This document shows positions 19,267 to 26,330 of a stretch of DNA of 56,603 nucleotides, piece after piece. The notes under the pieces are model-generated. The model was not told the DNA's origin and made no database searches. It was given only the letters and a program-made list of their open reading frames with translations. Numbering within the stretch: the stretch's first letter is position 1; the number at the start of each line of letters is the position of its first letter. The stretch spans positions 1-56,603 of the forward strand of contig BJHH01000009.1 of the NCBI GenBank assembly GCA_014192065.1. Direction: 5' to 3'. The translations under genes and the position numbers were made by a program. The DNA is from Gemmatimonadota bacterium. Lineage in GTDB: Bacteria > Gemmatimonadota > Gemmatimonadetes > Gemmatimonadales > Gemmatimonadaceae.

Positions 19267-19362
19267 GCGGGCGACCCGACCGACGTGAAGGCGAACGACC
19301 CGACCGACGTGAAGGCTGGCGACCAGGCCGGAGTGAAGGCTGGCGATCCGGCCGGTGTGACA
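19267..19362 (+). repeat. 24-bp tandem repeat, four copies
   Basis: Units start at 19267, 19291, 19315 and 19339, each ending in GTGAAG or GTGACA. Translated in the frame of the small ORF they read A-(G/N)-D-(P/Q)-(T/A)-(D/G)-V-(K/T). The first two units differ by two bases; the last two are more diverged. Confidence 0.85.
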
Positions 19363-19570: not shown

Positions 19571-19660
19571 ACGGCTGCCGACGACCACCGACGACCACCG
19601 ACGACCACCGACGACCACCGACGACCACCGACGACCACCGACGACCACCGACGACCTACG
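19571..19660. repeat. 10-bp tandem repeat array 1
   Basis: Seven perfect copies of ACGACCACCG occupy 19581-19650, with degenerate units at each edge (19571-19580 and 19651-19660). The period is exactly 10 bp. On the minus strand the unit reads CGGTGGTCGT. The last unit touches the stop codon of the HD gene at 19656. Confidence 0.95.
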
Positions 19661-21021: not shown

Positions 21022-21510
21022 ATGAGCATTCGACTGTTTGTCACCGGCGGTACTTTCGACAAGGAGTACGACGAAGTGACGGCGACGCTCGCGTTTCGTG
21101 AGACGCATGTCCCGCGGATGCTGGCGCTCGGCCGCTGCCGCGCGGACGTCGAGGTGGAGGTGTTGCTGCTCAAGGACAGCCTCGACCTTACCGATGCCGA
21201 CCGCGCCGGAATCGTGCAGGCGTGCGTGGCGTGTGCGGAAACGCGCATCGTCATCACGCACGGGACCGACACGATCGTGGAGACCGCGCGCGCGATCGCC
21301 GCGGCGGTGCACGAACGGACCGTCGTGCTAACCGGGGCGATGGTGCCGTTTGCCTTCGGTAGTTCGGACGGACTGTTCAATCTTGGCAGCGCCCTGTCGT
21401 TCGCGCAGGTGCTGCCAGCCGGCGTCTATGTCGCCATGAACGGTCGGTACTTCCGATGGGACGACGTACGGAAGAACCGTGACCTTGGGGTGTTCGAAGC
21501 GGCCCAGTAG
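21022..21510 (+). CDS. Short asparaginase-like protein
   Basis: 162 aa from ATG 21022. It corresponds to the N-terminal domain of type I/II asparaginases only: VTGGTFDKEYDE (catalytic Thr region) near residue 7, then ITHGTDTIVETARAI (the HGTDT motif) and VLTGAMVPFAFGSSDGLFNLGSAL. The C-terminal domain is absent. I judge this to be a naturally short subfamily because both catalytic motifs and a clean end remain. CAATAT sits 8 nt before the start. It is divergent from the HD phosphohydrolase by 139 bp. Confidence 0.85.
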   Translation: MSIRLFVTGGTFDKEYDEVTATLAFRETHVPRMLALGRCRADVEVEVLLLKDSLDLTDADRAGIVQACVACAETRIVITHGTDTIVETARAIAAAVHERTVVLTGAMVPFAFGSSDGLFNLGSALSFAQVLPAGVYVAMNGRYFRWDDVRKNRDLGVFEAAQ

Positions 21511-21630
21511 TACCCGCGCCCCCGCCTCCGCCTCCGAGCCCGAGGCAATGTTTTGATTTGCTCGGCGTGATCGCGATGACGGAATCTGGCGCCGTCCCCC
21601 ACACCGTAGTCAGCGACAGCCAAGAAGAGG
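21511..21630. other. Intergenic stretch before array 2
   Basis: A 120-bp non-coding stretch between the asparaginase-like gene and the repeat array. It begins with C-rich imperfect CCGCCTCCG repeats (about 21518-21540). I see no gene or convincing promoter in it. Confidence 0.4.
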
Positions 21631-21700
21631 CCGCAGGTGGCCGCGGGTGGCCGCGGGTGGCCGTAGGTGGCCACGGGTTTTCACGGGTTTTCACGGGTAC
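21631..21700. repeat. 10-bp tandem repeat array 2, left of the GxxExxY gene
   Basis: Seven consecutive 10-bp units with exact period. The first four are CCGCGGGTGG-type (21631-21670) and the last three are TCACGGGTTT-type (21671-21700). The core CGGGT faces the gene. The GGTGGCCG part resembles array 1 read on the minus strand (GGTGGTCG), and the CACGGGT part resembles array 3 read on the minus strand. Confidence 0.9.
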
Positions 21701-21706
21701 GGCGCG

Positions 21707-22132
21707 ATGGACATCGAAACGGACGAACGATCGGATGCGCACCTTCAGCACGCGGCGATCACGAAGCAGGTCATCGTCGCGTTTTACGAGGTGTACAATG
21801 AGCTCGGTGAGGGCTTCCTCGAGTCGGTCTATCAGGCTGCCCTGGGGCGCGTGCTCTGCGACGCCGGTCTCGGCGTGGTGCGTGAACAGGCGATCGAGGT
21901 GTTCTTCCGCGGCGCGGTGATCGGGCGGTTTTTCGCCGACCTCGTTGTCGAAGAGCGCGTCGTGGTCGAGTTGAAGGCGATGAAGGCGCTGCGAGCAGAA
22001 CATGAGGCGCAACTAATTCACTACCTGCGGGCCACAGGAATCGAGGTTGGCCTGCTCCTCAACTTTGGGCCGCGCCCTGAGTTCAAGCGGATGGTGTATT
22101 CGAATATTCTGAAGCGATCACTGCGGCTGTAT
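21707..22132 (+). CDS. GxxExxY-family protein with PD-(D/E)XK nuclease-like site; no stop codon of its own
   Basis: The conserved domain spans residues 1-142 from ATG 21707. It has the diagnostic G36-x2-E39-x2-Y42 (GFLESVY) and a nuclease-like D78...E88-x-K90 in FADLVVEERVVVELKAM, then HYLRATGIEVGLLLNFG and the family's closing MVYSN. Family function is unknown; the fold suggests a nuclease. The ORF does not stop after the domain: it continues through array 3 as a Cys/Thr/Arg-rich tail and stays open to 23164, antisense to pckA. The formal end is therefore 23164, but I mark only the conserved part. The start is 7 nt after array 2, with no ribosome site visible. Confidence 0.75.
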
Positions 22133-22200
22133 ACCCGTGGTGACCCGTCCGTTTGTACCCGTTGTACCCGTTGTACCCGTGGTTACCCGTGTAAACCCGC
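22133..22200. repeat. 9-10-bp tandem repeat array 3, right of the GxxExxY gene
   Basis: ACCCG cores start at 22133, 22143, 22157, 22166, 22175, 22185 and 22195, so the period is mostly 9-10 bp with one 14-bp step. Read on the minus strand the units are CACGGGTA-type, the same core as the right half of array 2 but in inverted orientation. Confidence 0.88.
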
Positions 22201-22243
22201 GGCAACAGTAGCAGTCATCCCCGCGTCACCTCGGAATACACGT

Positions 22244-22277
22244 GGGGCCCGGCACCAGAATCTCAGCGCCGGGCCCC
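22244..22277 (-). terminator. Terminator hairpin of pckA
   Basis: A perfect 10-bp stem, GGGGCCCGGC (22244-22253) with GCCGGGCCCC (22268-22277), encloses a 14-nt loop and lies 21 nt after the pckA stop. The U tract is missing. Confidence 0.7.
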
Positions 22278-22297
22278 AATCCCCACACGGCGTCGGA

Positions 22298-23920
<1,623 letters not shown>

Positions 23921-23945
23921 GGATGAGGAGAGTGTGGTAATTGGA

Positions 23946-26330
23946 TCAGCGAGCCGTGCGGGACGGAGCATCTGTCCGTTCCGCGCGGGCACGCACAGGT
24001 TGTTCGGCGGTGAACGTCTCGCCATTCGTGACGCTTATTTCGCCGGTGGTGCCGACGGGGATGTACGTGCCGCTGGTGGTACGCACCCGCCACTGCGCAT
24101 CGATCACGGCGACGGCCGCCATGTTGACGATGTCCTGCACATCGGCGCCCTGTTCCAGCACGTGCACTGGATTGGCCATGCCGACGAGGATGGGGCCGAT
24201 CGCGGTGGCCCCGCCCAGTTCTGTGAGCAACTTGTACGCGATGTTGCCGGCGCTCAGGTTCGGGAAGATCAACACGTTGGCCGACTCGGTGAGGCGGCTG
24301 AACGGGTAGCGCTTGGCGAGTTCTTCGTCGTTGCAGGCGAGATCAGCCTGCATTTCGCCATCCACTTGGAGCGTAGGCCGTCGCTCGCGCACGATGCGCA
24401 CCGCCTCGGCCATTTTTGCGGAATGCGGGTGCTTGACCGATCCGAAGTTCGAAAATGAGAGCATCGCGATCTTGGGAACCTGTCCAAAATTTGCGACCAA
24501 TCCGGCCGCCGAAATCGCGATCTGGGCGATCTGCTCGGCGGTCGGGTCGATGTTCACCGTCGTGTCGCCAAAGAACACGACGCGGCGTTCGAAGACGAGC
24601 ATGTAGAGGCCGGCGGCGAGCTTCGTGACGTGGTGCGCGCCAATGACTTCAAGGGCCGGGCGAATCGTTTCGGGGTAGTGCTTGCCGAGCCCGCCCACGA
24701 TGCCGTCAGCGTCGCCCACGGCCACCATCACGCAGCCGAAGTAGACCCCCTTGTACAGCCGCTGCTCCGCTTCTGAGAGCGACAGTCCTTTGCGCTGGCG
24801 GAGTTCAAAGAGGTACTGCGCGTACCGTTCGCGATCCGGAGACGTGCCGGGGTCCTCGATCCGGATCCCTCCGAGGGAAATACCGTGGGTATCGGCGGTG
24901 CGGCGGATGCGGTCGGCTCGGCCAAGCAGAATCGGGTGGGCGATTCCCTCGTCCACCATGATCTGCGCCGCGCGCAGCACTTTGAGGTCCTCGCCTTCGG
25001 CGAACACGATGCGCTTTGGGTCGTGCTGGGCGCGATTGATGATGCCGCGCATCAGCCCGCGCGCGCGCCCGAGCCGAAGCTCCAGCACGTCGCGGTACTG
25101 CTCGAGGTCGATCATCTCACGAGCGACACCGCTGGCGACTGCTGCCCACGCGACGGCTGGCGCGACCCAGAGTAGGACGCGTGGGTCGAAGGTGAACGGA
25201 ATGAGGTAGTCCCGCCCAAACTTTACCGACGACAGCCCGTACAGCTGCGAGACGCTGTCTGGCACGTCTTCCTTGGCCAGCGCGGCGAGCGCGCGCGTCG
25301 CGGCCATCTTCATTTCCTCGTTGATCTCCGTGGCACGCACGTCGAGCGCCCCGCGGAAGATGAACGGAAAGCAGAGTACGTTGTTGACCTGATTCGGAAA
25401 GTCGCTGCGACCGGTGGCAACGATGGCGTCGTCGCGCACGGCGTGCACTTCGGCAGGCAGGATTTCTGGAACGGGGTTGGCGAGCGCAAAGATGATTGGC
25501 TTCGGTCCCATGGCCCGGACCATCGCCTGCGACATCGCGCCCGCCGCGGAGAGGCCAACGAAAACATCGGCGCCCTGCAGCGCTTCTTCGAGCGTGCGGT
25601 TGGTGGTCGTAATCGCAAACCGAGCCTTGTACGGGTCCATATGCTCGGGCGTGCGTTCTGTGTGGATCACACCGACCCGGTCACACATGGTGATGTGTTC
25701 GCGCTTTACGCCCAGGGCCACATAGTGCTCGCCGGTCGAAATGGCCGCTGCACCAGCGCCGGAGAACACCACGCGGACTTCCTCGATCTTTTTGCCGACC
25801 ACCTCGAGCGCGTTGAGCAGTGCGGCGCCCGAGATGATCGCGGTGCCGTGCTGGTCGTCGTGGAAGACGGGAATCTTCATCGTCTTCCGCAGCGTCTCCT
25901 CGATGTAGAAGCAGTCGGGGGCGCGGATGTCCTCGAGGTTGATTCCGCCAACTGTCGGCTCCAGGAGCTGGCAGAAACGGATCATGTCATCGGGCGATTC
26001 CGATCCGACTTCGAGGTCGAACACATCGATGTCGGCAAAAGTCTTGAACAGGTTGCCTTTGCCTTCCATCACCGGCTTGCCAGCGGCCGCGCCGATGTTG
26101 CCGAGTCCCAGGACGGCCGTGCCGTTGGTGACGACGGCGACCAGGTTGCCCTTGGCCGTGTACTTGTAGACGTCTTCCGGGTTGGCGTGAATCTCGAGGC
26201 AGGGTTCGGCGACGCCAGGGGAGTAGGCGAGCGCAAGATCGCGCTGGTTGGTCAGCGGCTTCGTCGGAACAACGGCGATCTTTCCGGGGCGGCCGCGCGC
26301 GTGGTAGTCCAGCGCATCTTCACGTTTCAT
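23946..26330 (-). CDS. maeB: NADP-dependent malic enzyme with phosphotransacetylase-like domain (MaeB)
   Basis: 794 aa. Residues 1 to about 400 form the malic enzyme: [31 protein letters not shown], the metal/substrate site HDDQHGTA, and the nucleotide fold VFSGAGAAA. About 430-770 is a phosphotransacetylase-like domain, usually regulatory (acetyl-CoA binding) in this family. It decarboxylates malate to pyruvate with NADP reduction. With pckA downstream, it controls carbon flow from C4 acids to pyruvate and PEP. TAAGTT lies 9 nt before the ATG without a Shine-Dalgarno. Confidence 0.97.

Follow-up and report, generated by a model that had tools for sequence, protein, structure and literature searches.

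The window analysed in this study, that is, the whole stretch of 56,603 nt from a Gemmatimonadota bacterium (GCA_014192065.1, contig BJHH01000009.1, positions 1–56,603, forward strand), contains a gene of the GxxExxY family between two arrays of short repeats that face each other across it. The homologous part of the GxxExxY protein is encoded at 21,707–22,129 on the plus strand, the left terminal array lies at 21,629–21,698 (plus), and the right terminal array lies at 22,131–22,202 (minus) and overlaps the 3′ end of the GxxExxY open reading frame. The frame itself (21,707–23,164, 485 aa) stays open to 23,164, through the right array and then antisense through the downstream gene; a one-base shift would give a stop at 22,209, directly behind the right array, and the frame may thus have been changed by slippage within the repeats. 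The upstream neighbor is an asparaginase-like gene (21,022–21,510, plus) and the downstream neighbor is PEPCK (22,298–24,025, minus). The 787 bp between them (21,511–22,297) form a lineage-specific block, which is wholly missing in the congener L038, where the asparaginase-like gene and PEPCK share a CTAG stop. Within the genus, L038 alone retains the asparaginase–PEPCK order and is too diverged, and a base-exact empty site was not found there. Taken by itself, the window shows only a 787-bp block missing from one congener. Rfam matches in the window were tRNAs only.

The left array consists of seven exact 10-bp units facing the gene (consensus GGCCRCGGGT, then two copies of TTTCACGGGT), which read in order GGCCGCAGGT, GGCCGCGGGT twice, GGCCGTAGGT, GGCCACGGGT, and TTTCACGGGT twice. 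An earlier description of the locus, referred to here as the sequence-only reading, had given all seven units a CGGGT core and placed their end 6 nt before the start codon; the seven 10-bp units stand, but CGGGT is present in five of the seven, with AGGT in the other two, and the gap to the ATG at 21,707 is 8 nt. The seven ACCCG-cored units (reverse complement CGGGT) reported on the right are also there, but not at a strict 10-bp period, since their cores start at 22,133, 22,143, 22,157, 22,166, 22,175, 22,185 and 22,195, with spacings of 10, 14, 9, 9, 10 and 10. The CACGGGT core does point at the gene from both sides, as claimed, in three of seven left units and three of seven right units, and the right array is 82% complementary to the left array in a 34-nt inverted repeat (I1).

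Several measures set these arrays apart from their surroundings. The cores reach 5 (CGGGT) and 7 (ACCCG) per 80 bp at the arrays and at most 2 elsewhere in the window. The inverted left/right match at the GxxExxY gene was the best among 2,231 positions of the same geometry in the window, with a score of 30 against a null mean of 11.5 (SD 2.55) and a next best outside score of 24. The pattern ACGGGTN{3,5}ACGGGT has 8 matches in the 2.45-Mb genome, 6 of them within the two arrays, and the reversed-pattern control has 0. No gene-less pairs of the window's own array type were seen across its genome; as the type occurs as a pair at this one locus only, the copy may be old or inactive. Two other repeats were observed upstream in the window: eight near-perfect 10-bp copies of CCGACGACCA at 19,578–19,656, all in a single direction and accounting for all genome matches of this repeat, whose reverse GGTCGTCGGT resembles the left-array unit GGCCGCGGGT, and a 24-bp tandem repeat (3.5 copies, 19,270–19,354) in a small frame behind a PP2C phosphatase gene.

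The family assignment of the enclosed gene proved right, with the protein matching TIGR04256 at 125.2 bits (cut-off 35, E 1.6e-36) and PF13366 (PDDEXK_3) at 130.8 bits (cut-off 22, E 4e-38). The window protein carries G36xxE39xxY42, D78, E88xK90, Q102 and Y106, which vary little or not at all across 59 sequences, and G34, G36, E39, Y42, D78, E88, K90, Q102 and F120 are conserved without exception among these homologues. The proposed D-x9-E-x-K pattern is intact as D78-x9-E88-x-K90 and invariant in the 59 homologues. PF13366 is the only gene enclosed by the window unit, which contains neither a DDE transposase nor a Y1 (HUH) transposase. PHROGs and PADLOC searches returned marginal matches only, and no solved homologue was found by sequence search.

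The AF2 model of the window protein (pLDDT 90.1, pTM 0.82) found Cas4 of Sulfolobus (SSO0001, 4ic1) as its first fold match (Foldseek probability 1.00, E 1.2e-5), followed by Hjc resolvases and lambda exonuclease, and VIA alignment to 4ic1 gave Z 10.4 over 106 aligned residues (rmsd 5.4). The sequence match to Cas4 models was marginal (E 0.0013), and the iron–sulphur-cluster cysteines of Cas4 were absent from the invariant and nearly invariant columns of the 59 homologues. Judged by its predicted fold, the GxxExxY protein is a minimal Cas4/Hjc-like PD-(D/E)XK nuclease. Such a fold would suit an enzyme that works on hairpins, junctions or the ends of DNA, although a fold alone is no proof of function.

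Some homologues depart from the conserved residues. The second GxxExxY copy in the window's genome (L002, 1501–1866) carries E39K and E88G and is probably dead, but it is still flanked by the inverted arrays AACCGCGGAGATTCGC and GCGAATCTCCGCGGTT. Four other homologues (L009, L016, L027 and L030), common to congeners, have a degraded ExK motif and no arrays, and are possibly domesticated copies. Homologues that have lost catalytic residues were not significantly more prone to lack arrays (P=0.35, n=9).

GxxExxY loci were gathered from the window's family, Gemmatimonadaceae (31, later 91), from a wide range of phyla together with a single Methanosarcinales archaeon (80), and, as a further set, from Sphingomonadaceae. 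The enrichment of arrays in the flanks of homologues, which the sequence-only reading had suggested looking for, was strong for inverted short-period arrays. Gene-facing arrays were found in most flanks outside Gemmatimonadaceae and in about half of those within, and strict periodicity was seen in 61/158 gene flanks against 2/154 control flanks in the cross-phylum set. An array typically holds some three units of 8 bp (TTCACGCGGAGACGCGGAGACGCGGAG, for example); the period is mostly 8 bp and ranges from 8 to 11 in Gemmatimonadaceae, and the unit varies across loci (CGCAAAG, CACAGAG, CGCGAAG, CACGGAT and others), many types holding GGAG-like purine runs. Of the array pairs 250–900 bp apart, 33 enclosed GxxExxY and 6 enclosed other sequence, all six in two loci. 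Such arrays also enclose GxxExxY in the cyanobacteria Nostoc and Dolichospermum (L118, L075). In the first Gemmatimonadaceae test, which used 300-bp flanks, 2/30 loci exceeded the 99th percentile of controls, the signal being blurred by unrelated longer repeats and few controls; the later test used tighter flanks and 91 loci. By match score, about half of the Gemmatimonadaceae loci, including the closest relative (L004), have no clear pair. In one locus (L084, 4582–6438), arrays lie within the coding sequence of a predicted type I restriction specificity gene (hsdS), where they keep the frame and give repeated peptides such as SREDAKTRRGGE.

Within a locus, the left array resembles the right one more than it resembles the arrays of other loci. 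In the array-match sets, the same-locus match compared with the other-locus match was 20.3 against 11.6 in Gemmatimonadaceae (n=91; 37/91 above the 99th percentile), having been 15.5 against 10.8 in the first 31 loci, 25.3 against 14.1 in Sphingomonadaceae (n=28), and 23.1 against 11.8 across phyla (n=74), with permutation P<=5e-5 for each of the last three comparisons; the direct orientation gave no left/right match signal in the same three locus sets. At the fabD–fabG site of 19 Sphingomonadaceae species, the arrays vary between species and match within each (P=5e-5). Six of the eight GxxExxY copies of a single genome (G191) were inspected, and most have their own matched array type, including the unusual unit CGCTAAGATTTTTAAG on both flanks of L219. 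Loci with more similar proteins also have more similar arrays (Mantel r=0.44, P=0.001). At the level of sequence comparison, these shared locus-specific variants in the left and right arrays offer the best evidence that the pair may be regarded as a functional unit. Chance or slippage alone was rejected as the origin of the arrays by core density, window-wide ranking, flank enrichment and left/right matching.

The boundaries of the unit were seen in the G191 paralogues L218 and L219, which encode 84% identical proteins at different genomic places and share a stretch of similar DNA that is delimited exactly by the outer edges of their left and right arrays. At the fabD–fabG site of Sphingomonadaceae (n=30), the gene and both arrays were present together in 4 loci and all absent in 26, in most of which the fab genes lie a few bases apart. 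Arrays persisting without the gene, the outcome named beforehand as telling against a cassette, do not occur at this site, where they are gone wherever the gene is gone. The small mobile cassette proposed from the window is therefore well supported in the anatomy of the family, through the array-to-array homology of L218/L219 and the fabD–fabG site, but not by the window's own array type, which is private to one locus. Among the species-level genomes compared, fabD–fabG and the ruvC–ruvA site described below included, no base-exact empty site was found, and no target-site duplication was found in these comparisons, which gave no base-exact empty site. Gene-bearing units seldom move, because GxxExxY genes rarely duplicate within a genome: across 102 within-genome pairs, protein identity reached a maximum of 84% with a median of 44%. 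The genes are also nearly absent from plasmids (8/72,556 records).

Facing array pairs without a gene also occur in Sphingomonadaceae, where they span 40–300 bp, reach some 30 pairs in a single genome, and are often nested, one pair within another. Five loci (L235, L236, L229, L228 and L233) are Russian-doll hairpins of nested pairs with differing unit types, often with a central GCGGCTTCGCCGC palindrome. A hairpin site between ruvC and ruvA is occupied, empty or differently occupied among congeners of one genus. When a single unit type was counted as the array pattern, it was present in 14/19 genomes with GxxExxY and in 9/91 without (Fisher P=3e-8, uncorrected for shared ancestry), and array number followed GxxExxY copy number (Spearman 0.60, likewise uncorrected). 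Array presence was not associated with Y1 transposases (Y1_Tnp, PF01797) in the Sphingomonadaceae genomes (P=0.31), and a RAYT/Y1 transposase was accordingly rejected as the mover of the arrays.

These counts bear on an alternative in which the pairs are independent MITE-like hairpin repeats moved by another enzyme, with GxxExxY as a captured passenger. It would account for the gene-less pairs, which far outnumber gene-bearing pairs in G150, G187 and G191, for the arrays inside hsdS, and for the nine genomes with arrays and no detectable GxxExxY (G088, G105, G153, G156, G165, G173, G177, G178 and G186), in which either recent loss of the gene or another mover could be responsible. We nevertheless regard it as unlikely, since no gene other than GxxExxY is enclosed time and again (33 against 6 pairs), in many phyla and an archaeon, since the arrays are associated with GxxExxY and not with Y1, the transposase family covered, and since array type tracks protein relatedness.

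The reading we prefer, with a probability of roughly 60%, takes the gene together with both arrays as a single small element: the arrays are its ends, its own nuclease probably acts on them, and it has gene-less derivatives. The element measures about 0.57 kb in the window and about 0.45–0.5 kb elsewhere. Its arrays would serve as terminal inverted repeats made of tandem 8–11-bp units and not of one fixed sequence. The GxxExxY nuclease may recognize the facing pair, whether in duplex form at the ends or folded into a hairpin or cruciform, and cut there, after which the element ends would be excised or be copied into other intergenic positions, existing hairpins included. The gene-less array pairs would then be non-autonomous derivatives, with their ends handled in trans by the same nuclease, and the nesting of such pairs suggests that existing hairpins are favored targets. 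What keeps the two arrays alike might be repair of one end on the template of the other, or the need of both to suit a single enzyme. Several results speak against this reading: the rare duplication of the genes within a genome, the nine Sphingomonadaceae genomes that have arrays and no detected GxxExxY, the Gemmatimonadaceae loci that lack a clear pair, the missing link between loss of catalytic residues and loss of arrays, and the failure of the genome comparisons to turn up a target-site duplication or a base-exact empty site.

A neighboring explanation keeps the nuclease and replaces transposition with repair or homing: GxxExxY would cut tandem arrays or cruciforms, and the gene would be copied into cut arrays by recombination between flanking repeats. 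The fold, whose closest matches are Cas4 and Hjc, a Holliday-junction resolvase, is in line with this, as are the nesting of one pair inside another, the rarity of duplication within a genome and the near absence from plasmids. An interrupted array would run in one direction, however, whereas the observed arrays face each other, and the empty fabD–fabG sites have no single-direction arrays that could have served as targets, which leaves this explanation with only a small share of our confidence. Least probable is that the arrays are regulatory or structural DNA (operators, Shine–Dalgarno-like sequences or terminator hairpins) held by selection with no movement, which suits the left array directly before the start codon, the right array at the stop, the GGAG-like runs and an insertion at fabD–fabG common to many species, but is weakened by the L218/L219 boundaries and the ruvC–ruvA site and leaves unexplained the gene-less pairs at dozens of unrelated places, the nested pairs, the units that differ by species yet agree left and right at a single fixed site, and paralogue homology that stops at array edges.

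The element reading gives the observations a wider meaning. The GxxExxY family is very widespread and has no assigned function, none being given where the searched literature names it, and the facing arrays provide candidate DNA substrates. The link would also explain where the hairpin repeats found across several phyla come from, repeats of which the literature searched makes no mention, and two arrays 0.4 kb apart that change in concert would offer a manageable case in which to study how repeats evolve together. In the literature searched, the array sequences were not found printed as a bacterial repeat, and there was no description of the gene-plus-array element. We consider the chances about even that GxxExxY units represent an undescribed, widespread class of minimal mobile elements in bacteria and archaea, in which a Cas4/Hjc-like nuclease would use locus-specific arrays as substrates and drive gene-less hairpins while the arrays are rewritten in concert, similar to REPINs with another enzyme class.

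Among known systems, Cas4/RecB-like nucleases (4ic1) and Hjc are the best fold matches, and the E-D-ExK-QxxxY residues are invariant or nearly so in GxxExxY; unlike Cas4, GxxExxY is only a domain of about 115 aa, with no conserved iron–sulphur cysteines and a marginal sequence match. With MITEs and insertion sequences the unit shares inverted termini, gene-bearing and gene-less forms, and presence/absence polymorphism, and the homology of the L218/L219 copies stops at the inverted termini as in TIR transposons. It differs from them in having no DDE or HUH enzyme and in termini that are locus-specific tandem arrays evolving in concert; among the species-level genomes compared, which gave no base-exact empty site, no target-site duplication was found.

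The small dispersed repeats (SDRs) of cyanobacteria are single units of 21–27 nt, not known to have a linked gene, which form very small dispersed hairpins with nested insertions. GxxExxY-type hairpins are also very small and dispersed and show nested insertions, whereas their arrays of repeated 8-bp units enclose GxxExxY, including in the Nostoc and Dolichospermum loci. Cyanobacterial SDRs are named in the report on the RAYT/REPIN system (TnpA-REP; Bertels and Rainey 2011, PMC3116915), in which a gene is flanked by inverted short repeats, each genome has distinct low-copy genes, and many gene-less inverted pairs form hairpins scattered through intergenic space. GxxExxY shares the flanking inverted repeats, the distinct low-copy genes and, in Sphingomonadaceae, the dispersed hairpin-forming gene-less pairs. 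Its rare gene duplication and rare carriage on plasmids likewise resemble what is reported for RAYTs. The differences are that GxxExxY is a predicted PD-(D/E)XK nuclease and RAYT a Y1 HUH transposase, that the GxxExxY ends are tandem arrays of 8–11-bp units and REPs single palindromes of about 16–40 nt, and that the GxxExxY-type arrays do not track Y1_Tnp genes. RAYT/REPIN is the nearest system, with the same layout, a different enzyme and different ends. We place GxxExxY units with the small selfish hairpins that have a partner gene, a kind already known; if activity were shown, their array termini and class of enzyme would set them apart as a class of their own. If this is confirmed, populations of short hairpins would have arisen at least twice, with unrelated nucleases.
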